Source: a virus. From it: DNA of 64,000 bases. The translations under genes were made by a program, and so were the position numbers. Position 1 is the first letter of the stretch; each line of letters opens with the position of its first letter. Below the pieces are notes generated by a model. It had not been told where the DNA came from. It saw only the letters and a list, made by a program, of their open reading frames with translations, and ran no database searches. The stretch is from IMG/VR virus record IMGVR_UViG_3300047470_000343, positions 29,786 to 93,785 of that record; one strand, written 5' to 3'. Below, in pieces: positions 19,118 through 64,000 of this stretch.

Positions 19118-19256
19118 CCGGGAAGCGCGCGGGCCGAGCTTCCCGCCGCGAGACATGACTCTTTCGGTTACAGCCCATGGGGGTCTGCCGCCTTGATAAT
19201 CGTTCGGCTGGCAGAATGCGAGCGATCTGTTCGCCGTGCCTGGAAGGGGCGACGTC

Positions 19257-52300: not shown

Positions 52301-55300
52301 TGTAGAAGACCGGCGGCTCGTCGCCTTCCGACGGAACGTCGCTCTTGGGCGGCGTCTGCCCGGGAAGGGCGTACGTAGGCAGGGAGTGCACCCACATCGG
52401 CGGATCGTTCTGGCTGCGCTCGGACGGACGCTTGACCTCGCCGTTGCGGGCGCGGCCCGACGTGAACGTCTTGTCCTTGTCGCGGCGCTTGAAGATCAGA
52501 AGGTCGGTCATGACCGGAGTGCCTGCGGTCCGCTGGTGCGCACCGGACGGCAGACGGATCGCGGCGACCAGTTCGCCCTTCTCCGCCATCTCCATACGGG
52601 CGGACTCGGCCCGCTTGCCGTGGCCGTCCATCGTGAGCGCGGACGTGATCACGGAGACCAGGCCGCCGGCCCGGGTCAGATCCAGGGACTTGAGGATGAA
52701 GTGGTTGTGGATCGAGTGGCCGCCCTTGTTGTGCACCAGGTCGGGCACCTTGTAGCGGCCGAAGGGGACGTTGCCGATCGCCATGTCGAAGGTGCCGTTG
52801 GGGGCACGGGTGTCGCCGAACGACTCGTGACGGACCTCGGAGTGCGGGTAGAGGGCCTTCGCGATACGCGCCGTGATCGGGTCGACCTCGACGCCGGTCA
52901 TCTCGGCGCCGTCGGGGGCGTAGCCGATGAAGTTGCCGACGCCGGATCCCGGCTCCAGCACCATTCCGCCGTCGAACCCGAGTCCCTCGACCGCGGCCCA
53001 GACCTGCTGAACGATCTGCGGGTCGGTGTAGTGGGCGTTCAGAACGTTGTCGTTGGCGTCCGCCCACTCCTTGTCGGTCAGGAGCTGACGCAGCTTCTCC
53101 GCGAGCGGCGCGAACTGGCCCTCGGGGCGGGGCTTGAAGAGGTGCGGGACCGCGCCCCACCCGGAGTACCGGGCGAGCTCGGTCTGCTCGTCCGGTGTTG
53201 CCGGACGGTTCTCGGCCTCCAGCCGGTGAAGGATCTCGATGGCGGCGATGTTCGCCTTCGCCCGGTTGAGCGGGCTGGACGGCGCCAGGGTCTCGCCACT
53301 GGCCGGAGGCTCGAACGACGGAGCGGTGGCCTGCTGCTCCGGGGTGCCGAACGCTACAGAGCCGGAATCTCCACCGGCGGCATGTCCTTCGTCTCCGTGC
53401 CCGGCTCCTTCTCCATCCCGTACACCATCTCGTGCAGCACCCGTTCCCGAGCTCGCATCTTCACGGACTTCCGCTCGTTGGCCCGATCCACGACGTCCGT
53501 CCCCGCCACCAGAGGCGGCAGCCACTCGTCCGTCAGATCCTCGATCGCCGCCACGATCTCCGCCGACCGCTCCCGGGCGAACTCCTCCAGCGCCGCGTTC
53601 GTCGGCATCGCTGCCACCTCGCTGGGCCGGTACGTCTTCCAGAACGTTCGAACGAGATCCTCGTACGCCACCGTCGTTGCTCCTCTGTGTGTGATCGGCC
53701 AGGGCCTTCAGGGCGATGTCCACGTTCTCCCGCGCGGTACGCAGAAGGCTCTGGACGTGAATGTTGCGGCGGGCATCCATGCCGCGGGTGGCGCGCTGGA
53801 CCGCATCCAGCGCGGCCCGGAACTTGCTGATCGCGTCGGACGGGGTCAGCTCGCCCCGCTCATACTGATCCAGCACGTCGGCGGCCTGCACAGCGAGGTC
53901 GCGCGCAGCCTGCTCTCCGTGCAGTTCACGGATGTCGTTGATGGCCGGGAACATCTGGTTCGAGGCCTCGCGCAGCGCCGCGAGGACGTGCTGCTTCATG
54001 GCGGTCTCAGACGCCATGTGGGCCAAGTCCCGCTCGTCCTGCTTCGCCTGCTTGTCGGCGGCCGCACGGTTCTTGTCGGCCTGCTCCTTGTCCTGCTCGC
54101 GCACCAGGTCGGCGACAGCCGCCTCCTGGGTCAGGAACGACTTCTTCGAGGTGTAGCGGGTGCCGTAGCCGAGACGGCTCCACTTCCAGCGGCCCGTCGA
54201 GCCCCTGAGCGCCGAGGTATGCCCCTGTTCGCCGTCGATGGTGACGGGGATGCTGCCGTTGTCGTTCGGGGTGCCGAGGGAGACGCGGGCGAGCTGCTGC
54301 GCGTACGCCTGCTCGTCCTGCTTCTGCGCCGCGGCGAGGATGGCCTCAGCCTCGGCCTGGCTGCGCGCAGACTTCTCCGGATCGTCGTCATAGTCGCCGT
54401 CCGCCCAGTCCTTGACGGCCCGCTCGTACTCGGCGTCGAGGCTCTTGCGCGGCTCCTGCGACCAGTCCCGCTTTTCGGGCGTCGCCTGCTCGGGTGCCGG
54501 CTGCGGGGCGTTCTGCTCGGGGGCGTCCGGGTTCGGGGCGTCGGTCTGCGTCGGCTTCCCGGCGTACGGGGTGCCGTCGGGCCGCATGATGTCGCCCACC
54601 GGGTGCACGCGCGTGCCGCGCTCGGCGCGCACGAGGACCGACCCGGAGTCCTTGTTGACGCCCATGACGTCGCCGACACCGTCGGGAGAGTTGACCTCGT
54701 CACCGACCGCGGGGAAGTCCCCGTCAGCCGAGGCTTCCGGCGCGTTCTGCGGGGCCGGGGCGGGCTGCTTCTGTTCGGCCTGCCGCTTGGCGTAGTCCTT
54801 GGCGATGTACGAATCGGCGTCGCCGTGGTCGATGTCCCACTGGCCGCGGACGTCGTCCATCCGCTGCCCGAAGTCCTTGCGCCAACTGTTGACGCGGTTC
54901 GGGTTGCGGCGGAAGAGCTCGGGATCCCACCAGTCCACTTCCTGACCCGGGCGGGACGGCTCCTCGACCTCACGGCCGACCGCCAGGGCGAACATGCTGG
55001 CGTCACGCCAGGACTTGAAGCCCTTCCCGGCGCCGCCCGTGTAGCCGATATCGCGGCCGTCGTAGGCGCGGACGACGTCGAACTCCTCGGGGCCGCGCTG
55101 GACGATGGCGAACCCGAAGTGGTCCGCCGCGGTGACCTTCCACTTGGGGTTCGCCGCGATGGCGCGGAGCATGTTCTTACGGTGCTCGTCGAACGCCGGG
55201 TCGCCGCCGTTCTTCCAGTACTCGCGCAGCTCACTGGTATTGCCCGGCTTGTGGAAGCCGCCGGTGCTGTCGTCGTCGTTCTTCGGCCCGATGTGGCCGA

Positions 55301-57620
55301 CGGCGATGTTCTGCCGGGGGATGCCGGAGGTGTCGGCGATGGACTGCGCGGCCTGCACCAGCGGGTTCGGTCGCTCGGTCGGAGCCGCCGGAGCGTCAGG
55401 CTTGGGCGTGGCGGCCTGCTCGTCCAGCCACTTCTGAGCAGCGCGAGCCCGGAGGCTCTTTCGCCTATCCATCAACGGTCCCTCGTGGCCGTTGCCGATT
55501 GCGGCGATCAGCTCGATCCACTTTCGGTCGCGCTCCGGACCAGCCGGGTACTTCCACGATCCGTCGGGGTTGACCATCTCGGGGTCGACCGTGTGACGCA
55601 GGAAGGTGATCGCCGCGCCATCGGAGCGGAACAGAGCGAAGGGCAGCGGGCGACCGGTCTCGACGTCGCGCAGCTCCACGGAGTCGGGGCCGTTGCGGTA
55701 GTCGGAGCCGTGGTTGTGTACGAACGCGATGTCGCCCGCCACGGCACCGGAATGCTTGTTGGCGGCGGCCTCAAGGTTGTCTCGGGCCGAGGACGGAGGG
55801 GCTTGAGAGACGAGCTGCTTCCAGTGCTCGCGCACCTTGTCGTACTCGCTCTGGCCCCCGGCCGGCCGGTGGTACGGCTCGGCCGTACCGGTGTTGGACG
55901 CGGCAGCCACGACCGGCGCGGTCGGAGCCGCAGGGGCCGGAGTCGGGGGGGCCGGGGTGCGCTTCGCGGTCGCGCCCTCGCGCTTCTTCGCCGCCTTGTC
56001 CGCGAAGACCTTCTTCGCATCGACGCTGGCCTGGCGCACCATCTCCTGGCCCTTGGGCGACTCCAGGCGCTGGTGATAGCCGGGGGAGTCCCAGTCGAAC
56101 GGCTTGCCGTCGAGCTGGGCCGCCTCCAGGCGGTTCGCGAAGTCGACCGCTTCGCCCTTGCGGTCCGACATGGCCAGGCGGACACCGCTGCCGGAGACGA
56201 TGACGGCGTATCCGGACTTCCGCTGACCGTCCTTCTCCACGGTCATCTTGGCGATGACGAACCGGCCGCCTCGGGAGAGCTGCGGCTTGTCCAGCTTGGC
56301 GAACAGCGCGGCGGTTTCCCGCTGGTGCCGCTCCTGCGTGGCCTTATTGGTGGTGTACGGCTCCAGGTTGCCCTTCTGCCAGTACTTCTGAAGCTCGTCG
56401 AGGTTCTTGAACAGCTTGCCGCGAGGACCGGAGCTCTCACTGGGGGGAGCGGGGCGCCAGGCCCGAGGGACAAGCGGCTGGATCTTCGGGCGCTTCTTGC
56501 TCGGCGCGGGGATCGGCTCTTCGCCGTGGCTGGTGAAGCGTTCGTGAGCAAGATTCAGGGCGTCGCGCAGGTTGGCGGCGTACCGGGCGACTTCGTCTTG
56601 GCCGTCATCGTGGGCCAGTTCGGAGAGCTTGTCGGCGTCGTCCGCGAGCCATGACAGCCGCTCGACGTCGTCCGGGTCGAGCTGGTTCTTCTTGTCGTCC
56701 CGGACGTCGAATCCGGTGCCCACGTCGGCCAGGTTGTCGTAGAGCTCGTCTGCTTCGGTGTTGTGCCAGTTGGCCGGCCAGACGCCTTCCAGGTCCCCGA
56801 AATACTCCTCGCTGAGGTCGCGTACGGCGCGGCGGGCGTGGCTGGTGTCCCAGAACTGATTGAAGTGGTCGCCCACCTTGGGGCCCCGTGCGCGCAGCGC
56901 ATCCCCGTTGCCCATGAGGTGCCGGGCGTGCTCCGTCTCTCCCTGGTAGTTGTCCATGGGGAGGAGGTCAGAGAAGCGCGGGGTTGCGAGGTTGCCGCGC
57001 CGCGGGGCGGGCAGAGGGTCGCCGTCGTTGTCGTTGATGTGCGACATGGCGCGGCCCTGCGGGACGAGCGGCTGATCGTCGTCGTTCTCCGGGTCGTCGG
57101 GGCCGGCGCCGAGATCCTGGCCCTCGATGTCCTCGCCGATCGGCTGGTCCTGGTCGTCGCGCTCGTGGACGGTGTCCGGGGTCAGGCCGTTGTCGCCGCG
57201 GTCGTTCGCGCCGTGGTTCTTCTCGGGGTCGTCGTCCGTCTCCGGGTCGTGCGGAGCGTGGCCACCGCCGCGGGTCTCGTCGCCGAAGCGCCGTTCGTCC
57301 TCGTCGCGGACCTTGGACTTGCTCTTGGTCGGCGCCGTGCCGTCCGGGCGGCTGACCATGGTCAGCCGCGAAGCGTTGATGCGTGACTGCTGGTGGGTGG
57401 CCAGGTTCTCCACGAGCACGTCACGGCCGCCGAGCGCGCGCAGCACGCGGGCCATGCCGCCGCCCCACATGCGGGCGATGCCGCCCGTCTCAACGAAACG
57501 GCCCTTGGAATCGCGGGGGTGCAGATCCGCGTTCCAGGTGCGGCGCAGCCTCTTGGTTTCGAGGCTGGCGAGGAGGCGGTCTACGGCGCTGGTGATCGGC
57601 ATGCGGCGGACCATGCACAC
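33093..57620 (-). CDS. Giant large polyvalent protein (8175 codons)
   Basis: One uninterrupted frame of 24.5 kb. Domain order by residue: N-terminal segment with HPRDSKGRFV (about 34-43); acidic linker to about 220; several alpha/beta modules and a KOW/SH3-like module to about 1310; a Gly/Arg/Asp-rich bridge (1317-1422) overlapping another gene; an N6-adenine methyltransferase-like domain (about 1445-1760); a DarB-like SF2 helicase (about 2255-2870); disordered linkers; a UvrD-like SF1 helicase (about 3965-4570); repeated SH3-like modules (about 4600-7050); helical regions with a hydrophobic stretch near 7780-7805; and a C-terminal domain (8030-8175) that resembles a degenerate metallopeptidase. 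Large polyvalent proteins of phages are packaged in the head and injected (P1 DarB is the model), to counter host defences. The GTG start at 57620 lacks a clear Shine-Dalgarno sequence; ATGs at 57614 and 57602 are alternatives. Confidence 0.85.
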   Translation of the reverse strand: MCMVRRMPITSAVDRLLASLETKRLRRTWNADLHPRDSKGRFVETGGIARMWGGGMARVLRALGGRDVLVENLATHQQSRINASRLTMVSRPDGTAPTKSKSKVRDEDERRFGDETRGGGHAPHDPETDDDPEKNHGANDRGDNGLTPDTVHERDDQDQPIGEDIEGQDLGAGPDDPENDDDQPLVPQGRAMSHINDNDGDPLPAPRRGNLATPRFSDLLPMDNYQGETEHARHLMGNGDALRARGPKVGDHFNQFWDTSHARRAVRDLSEEYFGDLEGVWPANWHNTEADELYDNLADVGTGFDVRDDKKNQLDPDDVERLSWLADDADKLSELAHDDGQDEVARYAANLRDALNLAHERFTSHGEEPIPAPSKKRPKIQPLVPRAWRPAPPSESSGPRGKLFKNLDELQKYWQKGNLEPYTTNKATQERHQRETAALFAKLDKPQLSRGGRFVIAKMTVEKDGQRKSGYAVIVSGSGVRLAMSDRKGEAVDFANRLEAAQLDGKPFDWDSPGYHQRLESPKGQEMVRQASVDAKKVFADKAAKKREGATAKRTPAPPTPAPAAPTAPVVAAASNTGTAEPYHRPAGGQSEYDKVREHWKQLVSQAPPSSARDNLEAAANKHSGAVAGDIAFVHNHGSDYRNGPDSVELRDVETGRPLPFALFRSDGAAITFLRHTVDPEMVNPDGSWKYPAGPERDRKWIELIAAIGNGHEGPLMDRRKSLRARAAQKWLDEQAATPKPDAPAAPTERPNPLVQAAQSIADTSGIPRQNIAVGHIGPKNDDDSTGGFHKPGNTSELREYWKNGGDPAFDEHRKNMLRAIAANPKWKVTAADHFGFAIVQRGPEEFDVVRAYDGRDIGYTGGAGKGFKSWRDASMFALAVGREVEEPSRPGQEVDWWDPELFRRNPNRVNSWRKDFGQRMDDVRGQWDIDHGDADSYIAKDYAKRQAEQKQPAPAPQNAPEASADGDFPAVGDEVNSPDGVGDVMGVNKDSGSVLVRAERGTRVHPVGDIMRPDGTPYAGKPTQTDAPNPDAPEQNAPQPAPEQATPEKRDWSQEPRKSLDAEYERAVKDWADGDYDDDPEKSARSQAEAEAILAAAQKQDEQAYAQQLARVSLGTPNDNGSIPVTIDGEQGHTSALRGSTGRWKWSRLGYGTRYTSKKSFLTQEAAVADLVREQDKEQADKNRAAADKQAKQDERDLAHMASETAMKQHVLAALREASNQMFPAINDIRELHGEQAARDLAVQAADVLDQYERGELTPSDAISKFRAALDAVQRATRGMDARRNIHVQSLLRTARENVDIALKALADHTQRSNDGGVRGSRSNVLEDVPAQRGGSDADERGAGGVRPGAVGGDRGGDRGSDGRVAAASGGGDGRRGSGQRAEVREDASSGTGAARDGVRDGEGAGHGDEGHAAGGDSGSVAFGTPEQQATAPSFEPPASGETLAPSSPLNRAKANIAAIEILHRLEAENRPATPDEQTELARYSGWGAVPHLFKPRPEGQFAPLAEKLRQLLTDKEWADANDNVLNAHYTDPQIVQQVWAAVEGLGFDGGMVLEPGSGVGNFIGYAPDGAEMTGVEVDPITARIAKALYPHSEVRHESFGDTRAPNGTFDMAIGNVPFGRYKVPDLVHNKGGHSIHNHFILKSLDLTRAGGLVSVITSALTMDGHGKRAESARMEMAEKGELVAAIRLPSGAHQRTAGTPVMTDLLIFKRRDKDKTFTSGRARNGEVKRPSERSQNDPPMWVHSLPTYALPGQTPPKSDVPSEGDEPPVFYNSYFHDHPEQVLGKLAVGSGQHNDHELRADGDGNLLANLDRALKRSVAAAKDMGLGYQAAPENRRKVVLLPPGSARVDGHVQAEPDGTFTQVRDRMVHPFTVPKNQVDEARKLLAVRDTFQSLLAEESRKDADESLIERLRAGLNEQYEAYAAKYGAINRFTWTHRTVTNAETGEQEKKAYRKRAPRGGLFAKDPTMANISPLDEYDDNTKQTTRAAVFTKRQGKFREIAQHADDPQDALAIVMDQDGRLTADGMARVMNTDPEDAVARLLAVRSVDPDTGVEYPLAFRAPDGKLVMAADYLSGNVREKLAEARQAAVDDPQFDLHVEQLERVVPADLSTGEIAAPIGASWIGREPVEQFLRETLGTDQIKVSWQGGALWAVDLPKSARKAMAYRTKDTWSAPGYDAVNIVEAILTNKKIRVTQTVNGKSEYDSKGTEDAEAKAELLREEFTDWLWRDPDRGEKYKRLYNDNFNAMAPRSYDGQRRTIPGLVEWFKPHPHQHAAVARMVNEPSVLLAHEVGAGKTAEMAMGVMELRRLGLVNKAAIVVPGHMLEQFRHEFAELFPESVANNRILTASSDDLAGKGRREFIARAAAGDYDAIILTQTAFESIQMRPEVQEAYITRRLERLREKIFKQQALDGAENDTRLVKRMQNQLKNLEEKLDRKLSGLKDAAGLNFEDMGIDYLVVDEAHMFKNLATPSSIAAIEGANRASDLEMKLEWLRQRSNTGRVVTFATATPVANSIAEVHTMMRYLRPDLLEQLGLMDFDDFASTFAQMVSAVERGADGTFSEKVRLAAFQNVPELLRLWRSFADVKTSEDLDLPVPEVAGGKAVTITMPMSEAQEAYEQQIKARAARLSGGNVDPKEDNYLKLLTDGRLSALDPRLIDPDAGPGNKLPTVADNVTRIYEQTKDAVYPTDPKNDPAPHATPGGLQIVFLDLGTPKDPGKTRKRRKKATSEDADTGDQAAAATDDGNDDETYTDFSTYDELKKLLVARGIPSEKIRFIHEAKDDAAKARLFHEARTGKISVLLGSTAKMGTGTNVQLRAVALHHVDAPWRPADVDQRNGRIIRQGNANEEVAIFQYATERSTDAKFWEAIARKAKFIRQLMRGSLNERVVEDIGKITFDADEASALTAGDPHLIAQAQIKPIVKRLRARFNAHQRSQEGFKRAIRDAEFYAGQAAKYVAALEDAKAKRKPTRGADFNARIGTTDFEGKEGRDEARSALNTTARAILVGGRQGMYNANTPPKVIGQIGGLDVTAKYERVWNTYQGRTEHAVTIDVPAISGSSKTYEEHELVDIDDKPQMLPLMRIEDALASIEGKIAREEGFLSDKQRAAEQATARVGKKFDLTDEYDTANRQLEILNEIMRLKAQPAGGEEDAKRREGQIKALDAELHELMGEQEDVLSQVAARDVNLSPKTPAPPAVTQDDKGQVKFVWPTDEARKAVRDKKLAAKREAFLARVERQQAAPAQSDALTMNESELTGETERLGELIANDEASEADVMRHAGLQREQQRRAKNRSASEPSSKPSGQGGTTMLDPKQVRNDLAQISPDTEPTASDDTGPQPAQKPEQPWQASDFKRGDVIRSSDFDDAREDELRSSIVLDPDYAPGELLVHLPDVDMRDVVAYDEVYRNDGQSTDPNHRDLIEGRTQQLGKDDSSDWGDPEDSPDPNEEFFQNFGSTLITDPADTKPAAEDTPKPEETPAAAAPTSGIPGTGPKPPTPRNTPPKEERPRPARKQADTVRPFANEREWRAGIAGVEGAQGQVTTAAEATWGREIPAPARSLRDNVFQAIAAQESGDTDDTASALGAAHEDAQRLRNRLTESDRQGMAEPLDNFLRVTDDYLARHAVTVEKRRREDAQRDRIEREAQEQFRRSLTGTPAPAPETPAEEPTTNETEPPAAPNQPAAASGPTPAPSAADDGEVGSLFTANKADNSAALGSLRARYEEQFGGQARGRVAQLSDELFTFLDQQWGEAAGDVFGPASETALHLADALHDQEMTPEERSGRFGVQVGAVQRELRARRDRLSQPEREEQPAPEPVPAPAAGTGTGGSAPQRQRTAPSDARPVPATPPADMEGGQIGEEIDTLDEQIEPLKDATDSVDLAYRLRLEQRRFELEEEERRRWKPTVERDEDGKVIPRKRGDVIRDRLAGYGLNDAEATGLVHRVEDLPAAKAGGYSDEDWARIDAAAAANESYPPTEEQGIIIDGAARRGLNMAVMALAGTGKSSTLKMLSHRMPGKKIVYLAFNRSVANEAREAQARGEYAKNLTASTANGYAAKVADKRLNNRLPNHKKGGFKKLSAQQIADRMRWYDTVKAGNRDLAPGGAATVAELMIKTWAKSADAEMGPQHITGAKTAQEARDLFNAVKPLADRMWANLSDPTKGDADEDLPMDFDYIVKMWAVGGFKIDADTLFWDEAQDVNPVMEGVVRAAIDQGVQVVAVGDSNQAIYGFRGASDALSKLPVDARATLTQSFRFGPAVANVGNRFLRLLGTRMRLKGFDRKDSRLGNIKPGDETMVIARTNAGVALAAVEGLAAGRTIAVSGGVKDLQEFVTAARTLAKGERTSHAELARFNGKSYEDILEEVNSDPELQQLKSLFALLEKHSDEIDKLMESGAQAAETENVGGRVWVTLDWNDPKVDQLKRWLGDGKTNGVGKLLYDRESRRYYYEPGKRTESFTKNGRTINYQVDNKLSLEDAKAKIDAHLAKLYPQEDTGGGRLVDEKKPHDLLVTTAHKSKGLESERVRIADDFRGPEYDDNGHIKWDTVPEDEDLRVAYVAVTRATDVLDSGSLGWVFEAVNDDDPTQPPTGEYRRDWVLDDFKPGDRINFQEEDGTGRVGEVARLDGPGLIARYDVDGQQREQYISTAQVQRRNGQDRPQLPVASEDELNQAVAEGRYPSAGGDAPVKLDAGQVRNDLAALKTPEAAPKAPADDIIAGNEEPPGPDATPYEVERYRRRFDIAYKVGYYVDYRNHDGQTVTARVVGTHGNPILRDSSGNEFQANPDWYADHFIAVRADDGSALPRPAWADTLPEGFRAVSPDEIQPGHVIRLGSSGDPLWGSRFVMSAKTDADGHTSLYTAVLNTQGGGGTGYDPRQLVTLDETEESRQAAEEALRRSDVKESAKLRGITLPKELPASTIAKPDREAPESSTAPEWNNGDWVVTPNGEGRVILAEDGKVVVLDGGGAPRTYEPRQLSMPGETRTAEHDAPTSQETARAEKRQQDLESAQSPEGLGLFYGARLANLDLEEGRGQVLDEDGNAVGWIRRRGTVWHGQDARGGQTAGGTAQSDSDPLYGPREAAQAVDSNRRDSGMRVALKDTAWRHLRPEEGSDIVQYSELSDVQREEFFKLVKDWEKSSDPELSEAAKHWGQGGLNYQQMNRLAQEAAATADSVDASTPEGRRRQAVLRRLADKIRAQASRAWHSWQTMPPPGEPDVPRDVDAPDWVPYGHRETSEAGTPVKLDAAQVRQELTDLNGGDSSPAANGDQGEAGSETEAGGETISPDQARLNDYVRVEVSDTVDRIRVHEGYLLANPRKGKGHRPRHGDYDAWILYLGTGPNQSPGRGNQVDIPADQKIQRLPAPEAPALGPVDMESVKPGQYIRVTVPDADGSEVTREGYVVSSSARRDGPRRDDPVMSWTVHIADTPHAAYEQDDVIEVPAGHEVERMAPPGPVPELEIPDVPGLDLSQYTRDDQESVDEYRKWAGVWANPAPDGPRNALLDRVKNMPGPAYMPLSPKGAPQWIGSAGDAFPLDQFDENARHLLAQYDGDQRDFLAGHAASMREATQRLAGEFRAASREIMLPRIATRSGLKDAAEKLNARWAEDSEQIRQVVPDQIAAAVVDADRHGLTEQQVKDFLVGVAGGDDPEQKANGLTGAFPEVRRSLISARDDVTSYYAGFHAWRGQDDDQSFAGYHHYNARRSALGAEYVPVADPRTGSGQLIVGEAELPDGMRWTRLQNLKPGDLYRPARGWFRNENRFDGLGAVHRVINLHADGKEGRTRTTSLSTGSHTEHPGDWVVHLTAPEPALRKKANAAVRDQWVQREIEEDDRKWEAAQAISRRPEGEAADVASLKEGERLRVRGSSEFLGGIYVAEGDLLQPPERAQMWRNGTQVDGWRLAVSTRGHAGDDIYVADGESDEWAERLSPKSNTAAPDDAPNPEATDTTAGVAPDAAPKSDAPGTGDPNTDAPETDKPQTDESQTDEPGTDEPNTDESENDNNDEERDRRRRRRNGLGNGVPSGGGGGGLPGGPGMGLPNFPDGSTPSTGSGRDRGDGSGRTPTGTRQADNANPAAELPDEYAALRQRYDGDMVPASEIEVGDWVHIVGADQIYNEPEHLVGRVLHTRQFNGGVRIEVESRDPLKGGDAVQRESASLYDGELAERLPEGNPGREDTSDLKRRMETWEERASASRVPAPEGWQAVDGSRIQPRIGDRFRIVSRRDGKNTQHMNVVVDRSADWQGDGYWGVKNQPRRFHPRDIVAIPEGADVQYRDYVPEPGESTPQRPERTPSVPDISDEPRAEIVNPDEPQRGDRVRVETQNTAGNKVTREGFLLAPAREVTATRDGERLKAWRLHLSDNPDAKPNVRNGVTILRDDKVARLPDTDAPAAGGADVPREGVATPVGGQDGASSSNSPSAGGSDAPGAGDGQGAAPAGDAPAPTSQYGINAAHSTGQAGSVDGRRIPTHKELEQYETGENRIISEEGERALFGSPERMQELAAQGFTPSPKLVSDHGREEVWRNGRLIGSLRAPHTVGFYMTPPEERWEGEMPLGTYFHPGTFSTRDAAIAHLVLRDMEQGAPDLSIVHPDIAWDFERLNPGNAFPPEKEGLRGLETLNDNPADMERYGAIRAMVDTLGRGETISGNVADDLDHLHDELRWLDATHYTYQPADLKHTHILGPGWLADEIREYLDVLRPEDPRAMHHETSKARAAKQFLTTLVDQGGMGRAESVPVTDLREGDIVHLNGRITDRYPGATSDRTGYVVGEPRPASITINKKRQKALRITVADSQARGHDLSGHTFVIPIGDNAQRLMSADDVNVPVDQYKYGRQVGETPEVTPQRATDASANTPAPAKDRPAPEANTPAPAPAEDRPAPEAETSAPAPAEERPAPAQAPASPQSPAADSPQQTADDTAEPERPAVPEPVGGRPAEWVKVSDINVGDVVRIDGITKGGTARTLAGYVTDGPTQVPTVRARRVQDMVRVLIAETPDGSTKRESVWVHPDATAARATRESGDESTTVQTGADSDVLTGRIADRVATDGGGNGLFPGSVVTDDDGREGVVVGANAAGVRVQFGDDRTDDAHEPSTLNVIDGGAARPSGWTSDGHRVEVGNWVSDRDGNMLGTVEELDGDTATVATTEGMKPMPVTDLRVIGDTADNGQDGEQGAPRREEPITSREPAPPVEPVTGPTVDPELAPEERDAVADRGTAPGDAPDAQQGAARIARDLPVTPGQASAVAEGLRQNADSSTAEGRAAKRAADRLDQAAGQTGASDDGGMTTEARYLSTGDVIVAPVNGEPSRLLIVEGIRSADGKTVDLLLANADGRFIRQSVSARAPFQPLPYDGSFEGGGVTDQADRRIAKATELKPGDHLVFGTGHNGSDWFTRKVQSVDVGDKEVTVEIEGVAGGPPSTKTFQILAGVLPESATVMDRERPAAAWFAANLGRLTGETPSTPAPDTGSAPAGRPEPGTVGSVGVGDTIALPDETNPDEMASYRVTDVQDAPGGVRVLTVEDGNGQRSERTMAAGDPLYQLPEPQVPADDDDEARDPNAGLDTAAFTADYGDWVARAVVDAAVEGTQTPGSIHQLREQIAANITAGALRSAMRRLRQDAVAVVDGSGITGDERERLLAELRRTAMSSRADAVQAAVQTLNDLEPLDGESPEDTAARAADLLRLIPESMRNRPETDEPDVDTNAGTTDADGDLGETTGDTEPETGEGSRVDDEVQGHVDGALGEALRDADTGPLTPERRAEIVARLAQRMADSRDGAAQRIAAQLPEGERPGVLARIKAALAQIARRIMELVAAFLKAIAAAVAYPFKAINRFRKALVRRVRSWPETRRLRRIAAAARSLPRHGDGMSLADQVAHWARLLPAPGHFGQVSRRRRWYRPATRSSLAAGQLPGVQDGTGWTMDRAADRGPGRYALRHLAAVRAAGTDVDADVVARLMAAAPELGDDPHGTVRHARRYQDRAEARVRNLRAVAAGQGAPDLGPEIAAAQVEAQHARQEADRLHQAYTAALPGAVRDTLAQVREMGPGGRNRLTLSHNSDQAAARALADAAGYVPREWLADRTARFVTAVDGDAGSYDADSGTATVADLGDGGRGTAVNALVAHLQRSYPDLVAAQEVFGFTRTHTGRPGARRSALDALLERLFGGRAEDVTDDQIVARGLATMFSGDWYRDDDLRAFLLGLLATR
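36770..41800 (-). other. Giant protein, repeated SH3-like modules
   Basis: At least six copies of a 20-25-residue beta unit with the pattern GD-hydrophobic-V-R-V, a variable loop, then a Gly-Tyr/Phe strand. Examples are GQYIRVTVPDADGSEVTREG, GDRVRVETQNTAGNKVTREG and GDVVRIDGITKGGTARTLAG. They are separated by Pro/Ala/Thr-rich linkers and alpha modules, and may bind peptide or nucleic acid, or simply give reach. Confidence 0.6.
43910..45728 (-). other. Giant protein, UvrD-like SF1 helicase
   Basis: All SF1A motifs are in order: Walker A ALAGTGKSSTLK (about 3990), DEAQD (about 4188), VAVGDSNQAIYGFRGA (about 4220), LTQSFRF, VTTAHKSKGLESERV (about 4505) and RVAYVAVTRA (about 4543). It should be an active ATP-dependent 3'-5' DNA translocase. 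Confidence 0.9.
49010..50855 (-). other. Giant protein, DarB-like SF2 helicase
   Basis: PHPHQHAAVARM Q-like motif, Walker A AHEVGAGKT (about 2290), DEAH (about 2460), FATATPVANS motif III, and LLGSTAKMGTGTNVQ plus DQRNGRIIRQG (about 2833) as motifs V and VI. A long coiled coil (about 2410-2445) is inserted between motifs I and II, as in other phage and plasmid antirestriction helicases. Confidence 0.9.
52340..53288 (-). other. Giant protein, N6-adenine DNA methyltransferase-like domain
   Basis: It begins with the DarB-type lead-in RAKANIAAIEILHRLEAENR and YSGWG. SAM-binding motif I is LEPGSGVGNFIG (about 1553). The catalytic NPPF-type motif reads NVPFGRY (about 1615), so the central Pro is Val. 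This variant is common in DarB-like proteins and leaves activity uncertain. Confidence 0.85.
53354..53671 (-). CDS. Out-of-frame 105-aa gene inside the giant frame
   Basis: It starts at GTG with AGAGGAG eight bases upstream, the best Shine-Dalgarno site seen in the giant gene. The protein is a normal globular mixture: MAYEDLVRTFWKTYRPSEVA, then a helix rich in Ala/Glu, then TDEWLPPLVAGTDVVDRANE and a Met/Glu-rich tail. In the same stretch the giant frame gives only Gly/Arg/Asp-rich low complexity, the usual look of a shadow frame. The start and length suggest a real gene between two LPP segments, which the giant frame crosses because it meets no stop. The family is not recognised. Confidence 0.65.
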   Translation of the reverse strand: MAYEDLVRTFWKTYRPSEVAAMPTNAALEEFARERSAEIVAAIEDLTDEWLPPLVAGTDVVDRANERKSVKMRARERVLHEMVYGMEKEPGTETKDMPPVEIPAL

Positions 57621-57673: not shown

Positions 57674-57889
57674 CTACATCGTCTCGTTCAAGATGTGGAG
57701 CAGGAACCAGCCGCTGAATCCCGTCCACCCGATGGTGAAGGCGGCTCTGCCGAGCTTCGAGGTCCGGACGTGGAAGAGCCGTCGGACGTTCTCGCTGAGG
57801 GTGTCGTCGTCCTGGCGGTTGATCAGCGCCCACGTCTCGTACAGGGCGAATACGGAGGTCCACGCAGACCAGACGAGCCAGCTTTTCAT
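57674..57889 (-). CDS. Small two-helix membrane protein
   Basis: The 71-aa protein starts with MKSWLVWSAWTSVFALYETW and overlaps the nuclease stop (ATGA). Two hydrophobic segments (about 3-20 and 50-67) flank a charged loop (INRQDDDTLSENVRRLFHVR). It lies between the nuclease and the giant gene. It may sit in the host membrane during injection or assembly, but no family is recognised. Confidence 0.7.
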   Translation of the reverse strand: MKSWLVWSAWTSVFALYETWALINRQDDDTLSENVRRLFHVRTSKLGRAAFTIGWTGFSGWFLLHILNETM

Positions 57890-58515
57890 GATGTCGTCTC
57901 CATCGCTGAGGAGGGCAGGGGGCGGGGGCCGGTGCCGTCGTACGGGGCGGCGAGGCCGGCGTTCATCAGTGCGCGAATGAGGTCGTGGCCGTAGGGGGTC
58001 GCGATGGTGGCGAGGTAGCGGCCGTACTTCTCCCGGCGCTCGGTGTCGACGGTGAACGCGGGCCCGTGCTTGGCGACCCAGTCGCGGACCCAGTCGGCGG
58101 CGTGCTTCCCGGCGTCGGTGTTCTTCTCGGCGGTGTTGATGCCGAGGAGCCGGACGCGTTCGTAGGCGCGGAGTTCGAACCCGAGGTCGATGGCGAGGTC
58201 GAGGGTGTCTCCGTCGATGACGCGGGTGATGCTCGTGGTGTAGGTGTGCGGCGCCGGGGCGTCGGTGAGGGTCGCGAGATAGCGGCCCTTGGCGTCGCGG
58301 GTGGTCTGGACGGTGAGCGCGCCTCCGCCGGCCTTCAGGTGCGCGCGGGCCCATGCGGCGGCCTTCTTCGGGTCGTCGGTGGCCGTGTCCGCCGTGGCGA
58401 TGGCGGCCAGGCGGACGCGTTGGGTCAGGTGCAGGTCGAACCCGAGGTCGATGTCGAGATCGAGGGCGCCCGCGCGGCCGAGGCTGAGGATGGTGGTGCG
58501 GTAGGTGTGCATCAC
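57886..58515 (-). CDS. Tandem staphylococcal-nuclease-fold protein
   Basis: The 209-aa protein has two SNase-like units. The second (about 90-195) keeps the thermonuclease pattern: TRVIDGDTLDLAIDLGFELR, RVRLLGINTAE and REKYGRYLAT; the Asp after the Ile-Leu-Gly strand is Asn. The first (about 3-85) repeats the same framework (LDLDIDLGFDLHLTQRVRLA, KGRYLATL) but lacks the VIDGDT metal site, so it is degenerate. No signal peptide is present. It overlaps the portal stop and the next gene start, so it is made with head proteins. It may degrade host or superinfecting DNA, or be packaged. Confidence 0.82.
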   Translation of the reverse strand: MMHTYRTTILSLGRAGALDLDIDLGFDLHLTQRVRLAAIATADTATDDPKKAAAWARAHLKAGGGALTVQTTRDAKGRYLATLTDAPAPHTYTTSITRVIDGDTLDLAIDLGFELRAYERVRLLGINTAEKNTDAGKHAADWVRDWVAKHGPAFTVDTERREKYGRYLATIATPYGHDLIRALMNAGLAAPYDGTGPRPLPSSAMETTS

Positions 58516-60971
58516 AGGTCACCGCTTTCGGTGGTGCGGTAGCGCAAGCGGCACCGGCAGTTGATGGTCAGGTGGAGGGGGGCGAGCTGGTCTCCGGGGA
58601 AGCGCATGGCGAAGCCGCCCACGTCGAAGGGCTTGCCGACGGGCAGGGTGGTGCCGTCCGCGGCCTGGTGGGCGGCGCGTACGCGGTCGTCTCCGCGGGT
58701 GACCCAGGTCCGTTCGATGCCGGGGCCGATCGCCGTGGCGGTGGCTTCCGCGGTGCCGTTGACGGTGGCGACGGCCGCCATCTCGGCCATGCCGGATCCG
58801 GTCTGTGCTGCTTGGTCGCCGAACGCGGTGCGTACGAGCGCGACCAGGTCGTCGATGTCGTCGGTGACGTCCTGCGCCTGAGTGAGGAGCGTGGCCACGC
58901 CGTCCAGGAAGCCGCGGGCGATGTCCTCCGCGGCTGCCACGGCGTCGAGGACGGCCGCGGTGATGCGCTGCGAGGCCTCCGGCGGCACATGCGGTGCGCC
59001 GAACGCGTCGGCGGTGCGCTGCGCGGTGGAGGACGCGACCCGGGCGAGGACCCGGGCGAGGGTGCCGGTGACTTCTTCGAGCCACCGGTCGGTGCCGACG
59101 ACCCGGGCCACGTCGAGTGCCGTGTCGCCGCCGCGCCGGTCCTCGGGGCCGGTCGGCTTCCAGAACTTGGTGCCCTTGCGGGCCTTGGGGGAGCGCAGGC
59201 GTGCGGTGACGACGCCTTCCTGCCGGGCGAAGAGGGATTCCAGCGCGAGCGCTACCGCTTCCTGTGCCCGGTCGTAGTCGTCGTCTGTGACCTCGAACGA
59301 GGGCCTGTCGACGATCGTGAAGGGGAGCGCCTTGGTCTGGATGCCGCGGGCTTCGTCGACGGCGGCCGCGGCCGCGCCGGGCTCGATCGCCTCGGTCTGC
59401 CCCATGCGGGCTTCTGCGACTGCTGCGGCGGCCTCTCCCGGGCCGGCGGCCTGGTCCTGTCCGATGCGGGCGTCGGCGACGGCTGCGGCCGCCGCTCCGC
59501 CTTCGTCCAGTGGCGGGGTGCCGGCGGGCTGTCCGCCGTCGGCGCGGGCCTGCGCCACCGCGTCGGCCGCTGTGGCGTCCCCTTCGGGCTGCTGCGCAGG
59601 ATCGAGGGGGGCGTTGGGGCCGCCGGGCGGCATGCCGGGCATGCCTTGGGAGCCGTCGCCCTGGATGCCGAGCGCTGCGGCGTCGGAGGGGCGCAGCGGT
59701 ACGGGGGCCTTCTGGGGGGAGATCCACAGGGCGCGGGAGTGCGGGTTGTTGAAGGGGGTCATTCCGGCGCGGCGCCGGTACTCGTCGATGGAGATCAGGC
59801 CCTTGTCGAACTCCTCGCGCGCCTCTTGGCGGCGCCGTCGGCGGGGGAGTTCGAGGGCCTGGACGGTGGAGGTGTTGAAGCGGATCCCGAGATCCTGGTC
59901 GCCGAGGTCACCGGCGAATGCGTCTGAGATGAGCGCCAGGTGGCCGAGCTCGGTGTGGACCCAGAATCCGTATTCTTCCTGCTCGGCGTTGTCGAAGGTG
60001 CGGCCCGACGCGTTGCCGGTGACGGACTCGGGTACGCCGAACGCGCCCAGGATCTCGATCTTGGAGTTCATCGCGGCGTGCTCGTAGGCCATCTCGCGCG
60101 GCCGGGCGGCGAGATCGACGTAGTTCATGCCGCCGGGGCCCGCGCCGACCACGGACACGTGACCGGCGAACTCCGAGCCGGGCAGGAACCGGGCCTCAAG
60201 GCGGTCCATGTCCGAGTCGGTGAGGCTGCTCGTGTCGACGGCGACGATGCCACCGGGCCGGGCGTCGTTCTTGATGAAGGCGACGTTGTACAGGCGTGAC
60301 AGGTGGTCGAGTTCGATGCTGATGCCCGCTGCTTCGAGCGGGGTCTGTCCGGAGAACGGGTCGGTGGGGTGCGGTTCGCGGATCCAGCGGACGCGTTCGG
60401 GTTCGAGTTCGCGGACGTGTCCGAACAGGGTCGTGAACTCGAAGTGCTTGATGTACTCGCCCTTGTCGTCCGGGATGGGGATGACCCGGTCGGGCGGCAG
60501 GAGGTCGAGGCGGGTGATGGTGCCGCGGTTGGAGCGGGTCACCTCGACGAATGCGCCCCGTTTGGAAAGCAGGATCTGTGCGGAGAGCCGTTTGCGGAAC
60601 TGTGAGCCGCTCTCCATCGGGTTGGCCCGTGGCCCGTTCAGCAGTCGCAGGAGCGGATGGTCGTCGACGACTTCCTCGAACTCGCCGTCTTCGGTGAGGC
60701 CGCGCCCGATCTCCAGCGGGAGCCGGGCGGCGTGCTTGCCCATGGTGTCGATCGCCTTGTAGACCCAGACGACGCGCTCATAGCCTTCGGTGACGACGCG
60801 TCCGATGTCCCAGCCGTCGGCGCGGCCTTCGGTTCCCCACCTGTTGCTCGTACCGGCGTACGTGGTGGAGGTGTAGCCGCCCGTCCACGCGATCGTTTTC
60901 GATTCGGCGGGCTGTACGGCTTGGTTGGCGATCAGGTTGCGTAGAGCTGGCAGCCAGCGGCGTCGGGCCAT
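58512..60971 (-). CDS. Portal protein fused to MuF head morphogenesis domain
   Basis: The 819-aa fusion starts at ATG with GAGGGGG upstream. Residues about 50-440 are an HK97-type portal, with RVVWVYKAIDTMGKHAARLP and ILGAFGVPESVTGNASGRTF typical of actinophage portals. An Ala/Pro/Gly-rich linker (about 460-545) has three ARxGQ/AAAAV repeats and ends near GIQTKALPF, a possible processing site. Residues about 560-819 are MuF: helices ending in VTRGDDRVRAAHQAADGTTL, FPGDQ and INCRCRLRY, the usual MuF C-terminus. The portal ring drives packaging with a terminase that is not in this window. Confidence 0.9.
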   Translation of the reverse strand: MARRRWLPALRNLIANQAVQPAESKTIAWTGGYTSTTYAGTSNRWGTEGRADGWDIGRVVTEGYERVVWVYKAIDTMGKHAARLPLEIGRGLTEDGEFEEVVDDHPLLRLLNGPRANPMESGSQFRKRLSAQILLSKRGAFVEVTRSNRGTITRLDLLPPDRVIPIPDDKGEYIKHFEFTTLFGHVRELEPERVRWIREPHPTDPFSGQTPLEAAGISIELDHLSRLYNVAFIKNDARPGGIVAVDTSSLTDSDMDRLEARFLPGSEFAGHVSVVGAGPGGMNYVDLAARPREMAYEHAAMNSKIEILGAFGVPESVTGNASGRTFDNAEQEEYGFWVHTELGHLALISDAFAGDLGDQDLGIRFNTSTVQALELPRRRRRQEAREEFDKGLISIDEYRRRAGMTPFNNPHSRALWISPQKAPVPLRPSDAAALGIQGDGSQGMPGMPPGGPNAPLDPAQQPEGDATAADAVAQARADGGQPAGTPPLDEGGAAAAAVADARIGQDQAAGPGEAAAAVAEARMGQTEAIEPGAAAAAVDEARGIQTKALPFTIVDRPSFEVTDDDYDRAQEAVALALESLFARQEGVVTARLRSPKARKGTKFWKPTGPEDRRGGDTALDVARVVGTDRWLEEVTGTLARVLARVASSTAQRTADAFGAPHVPPEASQRITAAVLDAVAAAEDIARGFLDGVATLLTQAQDVTDDIDDLVALVRTAFGDQAAQTGSGMAEMAAVATVNGTAEATATAIGPGIERTWVTRGDDRVRAAHQAADGTTLPVGKPFDVGGFAMRFPGDQLAPLHLTINCRCRLRYRTTESGDL

Positions 60972-60972
60972 G

Positions 60973-61338
60973 TCACGCCCCCTCGCCGCTCATCCATACG
61001 GCGATGGCCAGGAGGGCGCCGAAGGGGACAGACCAGGGGGTGAGCGTGTAGGCCGCGGCGGTCATCAGTGTCAGCCCGACAGTGAGGGGGCCGTAGCCGC
61101 GGTAGAGGCGTACCGGGCGCGGTACGGGGGGCTCCTTCTGGAGGAGGACCGACCCGCCGGCGGCCGCCATCGCTACGCCGATCAGGAATGCGACAGCGGG
61201 CGGTGATGCTGCGTAGAGGGCTCCCAGCAGGCCGACCGTCCCGACGCTGCCCAGGAGGAGGCCTGTCAGGTCGCGGGCGAGGCGACGCCGCAGTTCCCGG
61301 CGGCTGGGGAGCGGTTGTGACTGCGTTGGAGGATTCAC
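60973..61338 (-). CDS. Membrane protein with four hydrophobic segments
   Basis: The 121-aa protein is basic at the N-terminus (RRELRRRLARDLTG) and has four hydrophobic stretches (about 24-42, 48-65, 84-100 and 103-118). It ends one base before the portal start, so it is in the same transcript. The function is unknown; small membrane proteins before the portal occur in some Streptomyces phages. Confidence 0.65.
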   Translation of the reverse strand: MNPPTQSQPLPSRRELRRRLARDLTGLLLGSVGTVGLLGALYAASPPAVAFLIGVAMAAAGGSVLLQKEPPVPRPVRLYRGYGPLTVGLTLMTAAAYTLTPWSVPFGALLAIAVWMSGEGA

Positions 61339-61364: not shown

Positions 61365-61379
61365 GTTTGCGTCCCGGGC
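61365..61379 (-). promoter_or_regulatory. Intergenic box, copy 16
   Basis: GTTTGCGTCCCGGGC on the plus strand. It overlaps the stop of the 52-aa gene and lies 27 bases before the membrane protein start. Confidence 0.65.
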
Positions 61380-61537
61380 TAGTCGCCCAGGTCGATCACC
61401 GCGTACGCGAATCCGCCCCAGGCCAGCGCGGCGACTATGAGGGTGACAGCTGCGGCGGCGCGGGCGTCACCGGTGTGCGAGAAGGTGAGTCCGCCGGAGA
61501 TGAGACCGCAGGCGAGACCGGCAAGGAAGACGCGCAT
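61379..61537 (-). CDS. 52-aa membrane peptide
   Basis: ATG to TAG, with AGGAACC about eight bases upstream. The product MRVFLAGLACGLISGGLTFS, followed by a short polar turn and AAAVTLIVAALAWGGFAYAV, has two membrane segments and an acidic end. It lies between the 149-aa gene and the four-segment membrane protein on the same strand. Composition and spacing support a real gene. Confidence 0.6.
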   Translation of the reverse strand: MRVFLAGLACGLISGGLTFSHTGDARAAAAVTLIVAALAWGGFAYAVIDLGD

Positions 61538-61549
61538 GGGAAGGGGTTC

Positions 61550-61999
61550 CTATCGGGCGGGGCGGGAGACGCCGGAGACGTAGGCGCCGATACCGCGCCG
61601 CTGGATGGTGCCGCCGGGGATGAGCTTGGAGTTCGGGGGCGGCTCGGGGATCTTTCGCTTGGCGCGTACCGTCTGGTCGCCGCCGATCAGGTGCCGGTTG
61701 TCGATCAGGGCCTCGCAGTCCTCGCCGGAGACGTCCTCGTAGGGGCGGCGGCAGCCGCGGCAGTAGACCTCCAGCGCATCCACGCGGGTTCCGGCCGGGG
61801 CGGTGAAGCTGCCGCGGAAGTCCGCGGCCTTCGCGATCCGGTCCTCGACCTTGATCTCTGCGGCGACGATCCACACATGGGCGCGGGTGTCGATCTCGAC
61901 CGGCGCGGCCGGGGCCGGCGGGGGTGATTCCAGCGGCTCGTCGAAGAGGTCCGCGAACAGGCTCAGTTCCAGTTGGTCCCGCACTACCGCTGTTGTCAC
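61550..61999 (-). CDS. Hypothetical protein with Cys cluster, first gene of the phage operon
   Basis: The GTG at 61999 has GGAGG seven bases upstream and is preferred to an earlier in-frame start (149 aa). A beta segment (AHVWIVAAEIKVEDRIAKAA) is followed by ALEVYCRGCRRPYEDVSGED, whose CxxC and a later Cys suggest a metal-binding knuckle. The end is basic and Pro-rich. It is the most upstream gene of the leftward phage transcript in this window, after a terminator. The usual small-terminase position would be here, but no helix-turn-helix or terminase motif is visible. Confidence 0.6.
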   Translation of the reverse strand: MTTAVVRDQLELSLFADLFDEPLESPPPAPAAPVEIDTRAHVWIVAAEIKVEDRIAKAADFRGSFTAPAGTRVDALEVYCRGCRRPYEDVSGEDCEALIDNRHLIGGDQTVRAKRKIPEPPPNSKLIPGGTIQRRGIGAYVSGVSRPAR

Positions 62000-62106
62000 A
62001 GACGATCCTCCGGTATCGCAGTGGCCCCCCAGCGTCAACGCCTCGATGCCATATGGACGTAGTGACCGGCCAGGGCGTTACACCCGCCCGTTCAGGGCAG
62101 CAGAAA

Positions 62107-62145
62107 GCCCCGCCCATCCGCCGCGGGGGTGCGGGTGGGCGGGGC
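62107..62145 (-). terminator. Terminator after the graspetide genes
   Basis: GCCCCGCCCA (62107-62116) pairs with TGGGCGGGGC (62136-62145). On the minus strand the stem is followed by TTTCTG. It lies past the methyltransferase stop and separates the RiPP genes from the phage operon. Confidence 0.75.
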
Positions 62146-62160
62146 CGTCAGGGGCAGCGG

Positions 62161-63246
62161 TCAGGGCGTGACCGGGAGCGCCCAACTGGGTCCGTCCGTG
62201 TCCTCGTAGTACACGGTCTGCCGGTTCGGTGTGATGTTCAGCAGGAAGGCGTCACGCGCGGGTTCGTCCCCGAAGATCTTCGCCAGATCCTCGACGGTGT
62301 CCCACAGCTTCTGCGGGCCGATCTGCCGCACGGCCCCGGAAGTGAGGACGGTGGCGGTGGAGCCGTCAGGAGTCCACAGCCCGACGCCGTGAAACTCCCC
62401 GCTGTCCGTGTACCACTGACACGACGTATAGCCGGGCAGCGCCAGTGACGCCGGGAACCGGAGCCGGCCGAGCAGCTCGGCCGGCGGGATGCTGGTCTCG
62501 GTGGGGCTCTCATGGAGCGCCGCGTCGAACTGCGGTGCTGATCCGCCGATGCGCCGCGTCATGAAGTGCGCCGGGATGGGCAGGAAGCGGCCGGTGGCGT
62601 GGCCGCGGCCGGTGAGGGTGACGCGGACGATGCCGTAGCCGAGCGGCGCCACGATGACGGCGCCGGGGGCCGCCTGCTCCAGGAGCGGTTTCGGGATGGA
62701 GTGCAGGCCCACGGTCGCGATGATGCGGTCGTAGGGGCCGTTGCGGTCGTAGCCCTGGGCGCCGTCGCCCACCACTGTGGTTGGGTTGAAGCCCGCTTGC
62801 CGCAACCGTCCGGCCGCCGCCTCGACGAGACCGGGGTCGATGTCGACGGTGGTCACGCTCCCATCGCCGAGCCGGTGGGAGAGCAGCGCCGCGTTGTACC
62901 CGGTGCCGGCCCCCAGCTCCAGAGCGCGGTCCCCGTCGCGTACGTCCAGGGCGTCGAGCATGGCCAGCATGATGGAGGGCTGACTGGAGGAGCTGCTGGG
63001 GACGCCGTGCTCGTCGAGCTGTGTGGTCAGGGCCGCGTCGCTGTAGACCGCTTCCAGGTATCCCGGGTCTTCCTGGGTGAGCTGCTGCCACTCCCCGGTG
63101 CTGTTCTGCTGGTAGAAGGCGGGCACGAAGAGGTGGCGGGGCACGGAGGCGAACGCGTCGCCCCACGCGCTGGGTTGGTTGGCCGTGAGGCTGTCGGCCA
63201 TGCGCTGTCGCGCGACAGTAGCGGTGCCGTCGTCGAGCAGGGTCAT
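62161..63246 (-). CDS. tgmC: PIMT-type methyltransferase of an ATP-grasp RiPP system
   Basis: The start is ATG 63246, overlapping the ligase stop (ATGA); the longer frame is rejected. The 361-aa protein has the L-isoaspartate methyltransferase layout: a lead-in VPRHLFVPAFYQQ, PSIMLAMLDALDVRDG, the SAM motif LELGAGTGYNAALL, VTTVDIDP, GYDRNGPYDRIIATVG, and an approximately 130-residue C-terminal extension. It belongs to the methyltransferases coupled to ATP-grasp peptide maturases. In characterised cases (for example ThfM) they methylate an Asp of a macrocyclised precursor, giving an aspartimide. The extension and pairing argue against general protein repair. Confidence 0.85.
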   Translation of the reverse strand: MTLLDDGTATVARQRMADSLTANQPSAWGDAFASVPRHLFVPAFYQQNSTGEWQQLTQEDPGYLEAVYSDAALTTQLDEHGVPSSSSSQPSIMLAMLDALDVRDGDRALELGAGTGYNAALLSHRLGDGSVTTVDIDPGLVEAAAGRLRQAGFNPTTVVGDGAQGYDRNGPYDRIIATVGLHSIPKPLLEQAAPGAVIVAPLGYGIVRVTLTGRGHATGRFLPIPAHFMTRRIGGSAPQFDAALHESPTETSIPPAELLGRLRFPASLALPGYTSCQWYTDSGEFHGVGLWTPDGSTATVLTSGAVRQIGPQKLWDTVEDLAKIFGDEPARDAFLLNITPNRQTVYYEDTDGPSWALPVTP

Positions 63247-64000
63247 GCGGTGGCTCCCATCAGATATGTGGCGTGTGCTGCGGCGATCGGCAGGCCGGTG
63301 CGGTTCTCGACCCATCCCCACGTCCCGGCGGGGTTGTTCTCGAAGAACACCCACCTTCCCGTGGGGGTCACGGCGAAGTCGAACGCCCCGAATGCGATGC
63401 GGTAGTGGGCGAGGAACCGGCCGACAGAGACCCTGACGTAGCCGGGAACGTCCACGGTGTCGTACACGATGTGTTCGTAGTCGGTGCGCCAGTCGGTACG
63501 GGCGGCTTCGCTCGTCGTGGTCAGCTTGCCGCCGAAGACCTGCCCGCCCACGGCGATCAGGCGTACCTCGAACTCCTTGGGGATGTCTTCCTGGAAGTAG
63601 TGGGCGGTGGTGCGGATGCTGTCGTCGAAGTCGGCCGGGTCGACGCGGTGGGTGGCCACCATCAGCTTGCGGTCTGCGCCGACGTCGAGCCGGCCGCCGA
63701 GGACCGGCTTGCAGATCAGCGGGCCGTCAACGTCCTTCGCGAAGGCTCGCGCGGCGTCCGGATCGTTCGTGATGATGCTGCGCGGCACCGTCATACCGCA
63801 GCGGGTTGCCGCGACGAGCTGCTGCGGCTTGTGCGCGGCGATGCGGTCGGAGTGCGGGTTGTTGATCCACGGCACGCCGGGCAGCGCGGCGAACACGTTG
63901 AGGATCGCGGCATCGGCCTGGTTCTGCGCCCACGTGGCGTACGGCTCGGGGACGGTGTCGGCGATGCGGGGACGTGGGGGGCCCCCCCCCCAGAACCGCC
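63243..64000 (-). CDS. tgmB: ATP-grasp peptide maturase (graspetide synthetase), truncated at window end
   Basis: The visible part is the C-terminal two-thirds. The frame stays open to the right edge; PYATWAQNQADAAILNVFAA precedes VPWINNPHSDRIAAHKPQQL, as in graspetide synthetases. ATP-grasp features: ICKPVLGG, YFQEDIPKEFEVRLIAVGGQ, FGAFDFAVTPTGRWVFFENN and NPAGTWGWVE, with the Glu-Asn-Asn metal-binding segment. Such enzymes form ester or amide cross-links between Ser/Thr/Lys and Asp/Glu side chains of a precursor. The precursor gene should lie just beyond the edge. A GGGGGGCCCCCCCCCC run at 63976-63991 lies in the coding frame and may hide a sequencing error. Confidence 0.88.
   Translation of the reverse strand, partial: RFWGGGPPRPRIADTVPEPYATWAQNQADAAILNVFAALPGVPWINNPHSDRIAAHKPQQLVAATRCGMTVPRSIITNDPDAARAFAKDVDGPLICKPVLGGRLDVGADRKLMVATHRVDPADFDDSIRTTAHYFQEDIPKEFEVRLIAVGGQVFGGKLTTTSEAARTDWRTDYEHIVYDTVDVPGYVRVSVGRFLAHYRIAFGAFDFAVTPTGRWVFFENNPAGTWGWVENRTGLPIAAAHATYLMGATA

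Follow-up and report, generated by a model that had tools for sequence, protein, structure and literature searches.

The two genes at the right end of the analysed DNA are very probably the 3′ part of a tgmA-tgmB-tgmC graspetide cassette, which a Streptomyces phage-plasmid carries as peptide-maturation cargo at a fixed accessory site, the slot. The probability given to this reading is about 0.85 and refers to the cargo dock and the maturation, not to an anti-phage role. The DNA, here called the window, covers the right-hand 64 kb of the 93,785-bp virus record IMGVR_UViG_3300047470_000343. The window ends with the last base of the record (G000:C1:93785), so there is no sequence to the right, and tgmA and the N-terminus of TgmB are cut off. 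An exact DNA search for overlap with the right end of the window gave no match and the missing part was not recovered. The last bases of the record are a run of G and C; positions 63977-64000 carry the run GGGGGGCCCCCCCCCC. Since five homologous cassettes lose their similarity to the window at 63988, within this run, the bases from about 63977 to 64000 are probably an assembly artefact.

The first-pass annotation had described an ATP-grasp ligase coupled to a PIMT-type methyltransferase, and profile searches bore this out. On the minus strand, 63243-63998 matches TIGR04187 (GRASP_SAV_5884; 1.6e-75) over profile positions 74-311 of 312. As the match starts at position 74, only the N-terminal 73 or so positions are missing. 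TgmB aligns with the solved graspetide ligases 5ig8 (1.2e-31) and AMdnB (7m4s), and these alignments take in the region of the C-terminal E-N-N-P motif. TgmC (361 amino acids) matches TIGR04188 (methyltr_grsp; 4.8e-91) over positions 13-363 of 363 and Pfam PCMT (9.6e-29). Its PIMT core extends to about residue 205, and the TIGR04188 match reaches the end of the profile. A ligase of the TgmB type is thus adjacent to a PIMT homologue with a C-terminal extension of more than 100 amino acids, two of the features by which group 13 graspetide cassettes are recognised. The two genes overlap by ATGA and tgmC is translationally coupled to tgmB. Both proteins score below the curated NCBIfam cut-offs, TgmB with 254 against 350 bits for a truncated protein and TgmC with 305.8 against 380 bits, and are therefore divergent members of their families. 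The literal WXXXGXP motif, described for most but not all RiPP-associated PIMTs, is absent in TgmC of the window and in six compared relatives, including L034.

Among 50,697 deposited phage records, there was no near relative of TgmB; the best had 30% identity. A search of viral contigs with TgmC alone gave no relatives. Three further annotations were rejected. A PADLOC assignment of TgmC to mad2 looks like a generic domain match. A weak TIGR04188 match at W05:122998 sits in an HTH/DUF397 regulatory module and was not accepted as a RiPP gene. By analogy, the weak match at G008:111224, located far from the tgmB of that element, was also discarded.

Table 1. Features of the window (positions of the 64,000-nucleotide stretch)
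Feature	Position	Strand	Basis or remark
ParA-like partition protein	19236..20153	+	phrog_164 1.5e-23
Major head protein	27944..29245	-	phrog_10 6.9e-35
Giant protein of 8175 aa, family marker	33093..57620	-	Eco57I-like methylase, SNF2 and UvrD helicase domains
Staphylococcal-nuclease-like protein	57886..58515	-	SNase 2.2e-8
Portal fused to MuF-like domain, family marker	58512..60971	-	Phage_portal 1.6e-40, Phage_Mu_F 2.7e-4
Small membrane-like protein of 121 aa, conserved before the portal	60973..61338	-	
Small membrane-like protein of 52 aa, partly conserved	61379..61537	-	
sA, small conserved gene bordering the slot	61550..62038	-	in almost every family member whose sequence covers this place
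Intrinsic-terminator-like hairpin with short T tail	62100..62146	-	fold -36.9 kcal/mol, z -3.7
Cassette/backbone junction	62147..62161	.	90% DNA identity to G001 (L010) ends at 62160
tgmC, peptide aspartate methyltransferase of the PIMT type, extended at the C-terminus	62161..63246	-	TIGR04188, PCMT, G228 homologue
tgmB, ATP-grasp graspetide ligase, C-terminal three quarters (approximately)	63243..64000	-	TIGR04187, PDB relatives, G228:C12 homologue

The backbone belongs to a family of Streptomyces phage-plasmids of 125-137 kb, defined by the portal-MuF fusion, the small genes and the giant helicase reading frame. Its members include circular plasmids of 125-132 kb (NZ_CP107821, NZ_CP107934), many viral contigs and the isolated phage Gilgamesh of S. 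lividans. The window shares with Gilgamesh the gene order sA, sC, portal-MuF fusion and giant reading frame; the portal-MuF fusions of the two have 54% identity. The adjoining phage head genes that had been noted beside the pair are confirmed, with three small genes between the portal fusion and the pair. The contig also encodes a ParB-like protein, a single-strand binding protein (SSB), a head protease and a tape measure. Partition and virion genes thus occur on one element, as in Gilgamesh-like phage-plasmids, and the ParA-like protein supports plasmid maintenance. The source contig, a fragment of 93.8 kb, has no end repeats; a circular or virion-producing state is documented for the relatives only. 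In Gilgamesh, integrases and terminase are located about 10-29 kb past the slot, on the far side of the region. By comparison with this layout, the contig would lack both because it is truncated, with about 30 kb missing as judged from the family size. The slot is located between the regulatory and integrase region and the small genes preceding the portal.

A single open frame, placed between the genes for portal and head, encodes the giant protein. In relatives, the protein encoded at the matching place is shorter, for example 5247 amino acids in NZ_CP107821. The domain set corresponds to a DarB-like antirestriction architecture. The head maturation protease (29412-31409, minus strand) also matches RNA-ligase PHROGs, a fusion within the capsid operon.

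A terminator had been proposed to close the pair, and folding agreed. The hairpin, located 3′ of tgmC at about 62107-62146, has the tail TTTCT on the minus strand; a simple terminator scan did not list it. Similarly strong hairpins are present at the matching place in about 14 of the 34 family members compared. The terminator would insulate the slot from the virion operon and the small genes before the portal. It suggests that the tgm cassette is a transcription unit apart from the virion genes, as expected of a lysogen trait.

Do related phage-plasmids carry the same pair, as the first-pass annotation proposed to check? They do. The Streptomyces contig G228:C12 (126,055 bp) has a complete tgmA-tgmB-tgmC at the matching slot, flanked by sA, a small gene, the portal and the giant reading frame on one side and by the family regulator on the other. 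This agrees with the suggested origin of the pair as phage-plasmid cargo. The eroded phage-plasmid copy L136 also has the three genes in its slot. A different tgmABC occupies the slot of the circular plasmid NZ_CP107934 and of the viral contig L064, and L020 has tgmA-tgmB. Between the window and G228, TgmB is 84% and TgmC 63% identical but the portals only 50%, which indicates that the cassette moved between distant members of the family. In a maximum-likelihood tree, TgmB of the window falls into a clade of ten members (support 100/99) that is rich in mobile elements. This clade also comprises G228, the L136 remnant, a second phage lineage (L022), three plasmid copies and three further genes of other or undefined location. 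L034/L064 and L020 are placed outside. Based on this tree, graspetide genes arrived in the slot independently at least three times.

The second lineage, a 67-kb viral contig (IMGVR_UViG_2932454522_000001), encodes a tgmA-tgmB-tgmC of the subfamily of the window at L022 9519-11805, with tail-like genes adjoining. A precursor search among viral contigs had a match only in this contig (L022/L050).

The slot was surveyed in the 37 family members whose sequence extends far enough upstream; the window is included despite its cut end. Graspetide genes were found in 4 slots (window, L020, L034, L064) and FxLD lanthipeptide genes in 5 (L016, L018, L024, L025, L060). The FxLD sets comprise a precursor, a dehydratase and a methyltransferase; the set in L060 is partly cut. 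Radical-SAM cassettes were present in 4 of the 37 slots. A radical-SAM enzyme is located beside a small cysteine-bearing peptide in L012, L027 and L032, precursor calls that are based on position and sequence only, and L033 has a pair of SPASM radical-SAM enzyme and PIMT. Many slots hold cargo unrelated to RiPPs: thymidylate kinase with NUDIX, DnaE, a glycosyltransferase, queuosine-precursor genes, sets of Mur ligase and C39 peptidase, and an ABC-type ATPase. In whole-record searches of 45 records, strong graspetide ligases of these elements were confined to the slot. Judged from gene content, the slot appears as an exchangeable cargo dock enriched in RiPP cassettes, where phage-plasmids swap whole cassettes.

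Several cargo loci deserve a description of their own. The radical-SAM loci are located at L012 6527-7848, L027 6391-7917 and L032 4121-5382, and the adjoining peptides end in ...CSCNAGDDNPH, ...CSCQADDDQPY and ...GCGEDNPF, respectively. These sets may represent an undescribed radical-SAM peptide family. A radical-SAM and PIMT pair like that of L033 is encoded on NZ_CP070374 (100334-102459; L049 2335-4460), about 30 kb from the slot of the same phage-plasmid. CxxxCxxC proteins in the slots of L051 and L055 were considered as radical-SAM enzymes and rejected by Pfam, and a PADLOC assignment of the radical-SAM enzymes to viperins looks like a generic domain match. Genes for a C39-like peptidase and Mur-ligase-like proteins occur in the slots at L031 4977-10521 and at about L059 6553-8923; L031 adds a D-Ala-D-Ala ligase and a PLP enzyme. 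This cargo is possibly another small biosynthetic cassette. The alpha subunit of DNA polymerase III (DnaE) is encoded upstream of the portal on the opposite strand in L058, L072, L085 and L032.

The product can be predicted from the family models. Graspetide ligases form side-chain esters between threonine or serine and aspartate of the core peptide, and the PIMT homologue turns one aspartate of the cross-linked graspetide into an aspartimide (PMC13001092; PMC10787088). Accordingly, TgmB would use ATP to link side chains of Thr/Ser and Asp within a short precursor through ester bonds. TgmC would then methylate one aspartate, which closes to aspartimide or isoaspartate. The gene for the precursor, tgmA, is located upstream of tgmB in L006, L008, L022, L036, L111/L135 and L114. 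The precursor of the window element is predicted to end with ...AASTTDTNxDGKGDDVxDPYxAxAS, because the six nearest cassettes all have this core. The lysogen would likely produce an aspartimidylated graspetide. The chemistry first proposed, a graspetide with an aspartimide, holds as a prediction; the label imiditide does not. This name is reserved for a class with aspartimide as the only modification, and an aspartimidylated graspetide is a graspimiditide (PMC13001092), the term that fits here.

The cassette resembles group 13 graspetides and graspimiditides such as fuscimiditide, amycolimiditide, SsfA and the Streptomyces tgmABC. These too encode a precursor, an ATP-grasp ligase and a PIMT homologue within a single short operon, occur in Actinomycetota and share a C-terminal core rich in threonine and aspartate with the relatives of the window precursor. 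It differs in the divergence of its TgmB/TgmC subfamily, with scores below the curated cut-offs and no literal WXXXGXP, in the core TTDTNxDGKGDDVxDPY and in its location in a phage-plasmid slot. The element itself resembles Gilgamesh and the circular phage-plasmids of about 130 kb in marker genes, in their identical order and in size, whereas in the slot of Gilgamesh thymidylate kinase and MutT take the place of the RiPP cassette. There is a precedent for RiPP biosynthetic genes on the DNA of temperate Streptomyces phages: small biosynthetic gene clusters were reported for 13 of 2112 actinobacterial prophages (0.6%), several of them class I lanthipeptides in Streptomyces (PMC10023795). No fixed locus was reported for these, in contrast to the recurrent dock of the phage-plasmid family, which holds graspetides and at least one further RiPP class. 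In the open-access literature, no report was found of graspetides on phages or phage-plasmids, of this slot or of a fixed RiPP dock.

For the role of the peptide, protection against phages is preferred over an exported bacteriocin or signal, and this over a neutral passenger. The favoured role is a guess by analogy: the product may stay inside the lysogen and block superinfecting phages. The preference is based on the phage-blocking activity of intracellular Streptomyces lanthipeptides (PMC12360287). Those are also encoded by small Streptomyces RiPP clusters, and the tested lanthipeptides act inside the cell. Their clusters are located in host defence islands, and an anti-phage function has been demonstrated for other RiPPs only. 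The wider proposal is rather unlikely: a dedicated, often terminator-bounded dock in which graspetide, FxLD and radical-SAM peptides are swapped and would protect the lysogen from within against other phages.

An exported bacteriocin or developmental signal that helps the host to compete would give the lysogen a benefit other than phage defence. This role is somewhat doubtful. The prophage-borne gene clusters and class I lanthipeptides on record in Streptomyces (PMC10023795) fit it, as does the presence of the graspetide subfamily on plasmids without phage genes near the cassette. However, the graspetide cassettes showed no gene for export or other transport, for a leader peptidase or for immunity.

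It is unlikely that the slot is merely an insertion-tolerant place where common Streptomyces genes land and are not kept by selection. Graspetide ligase genes are indeed common in Streptomyces genomes (about 0.25 per Mb), and unrelated genes occupy many slots. However, at the densities with which these models match in 101 and 61 Streptomyces genomes, 0.08 graspetide and 0.02 FxLD matches are expected in the 37 slots, together about 0.1, against the four and five (nine) seen; the slot was picked after the fact and the elements are related, so Poisson figures for the enrichment overstate the evidence. The complete copies of L034, L064 and G228 have intact reading frames, and the slot has repeatedly received independent cassettes from two or more RiPP classes, which also argues against neutral passengers.

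The alternative first offered to phage-plasmid cargo, a host flank with the tgm pair as chromosomal DNA beside an integrated prophage, is very improbable and already contradicted. TIGR04187 has matches in 86 of the 101 Streptomyces genomes and the border shows no integrase, which would suit a host flank; a tRNA, also noted as absent from the border, was not found anywhere in the 64-kb window. Against it, relatives are circular plasmids, other phage-plasmids hold the cassette at the matching place with family genes on both sides, and integrases and terminase of the family are located further out. The nearest relative, G001, has a portal of 93% identity; its DNA is 90% identical up to 62160 and unrelated beyond, where a different methyltransferase gene ends, while to the right of 62160 the similarity of the window to the plasmid and G228 copies of the cassette continues. 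A chimeric assembly, with phage DNA misjoined near 62160 to a tgm cluster from Streptomyces, is scarcely credible despite the artefact-like last bases of the contig, as the independent assemblies G228 and L136 have the identical junction order and the similarity to G228 is unbroken from 62101 through terminator and cassette.

Read as cargo of the phage-plasmid dock, the cassette has consequences beyond this element. The slot is a practical mining site: the region upstream of the family portal gene is a source of new small RiPP cassettes, among them radical-SAM systems whose small cysteine-bearing peptides end in D(D/N)xPx-like motifs. For aspartimide-bearing RiPPs and graspetides, a 2026 review names the link to function as the bigger challenge (PMC13001092). 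A temperate phage family with a cultured member on S. lividans carries graspetide cassettes as exchangeable cargo, and the purpose of the peptides thereby becomes testable as a phage-carried trait. If the protective dock proves true, the cassettes would be prophage-encoded RiPP systems for superinfection exclusion and would give aspartimide-bearing graspetides a biological role.
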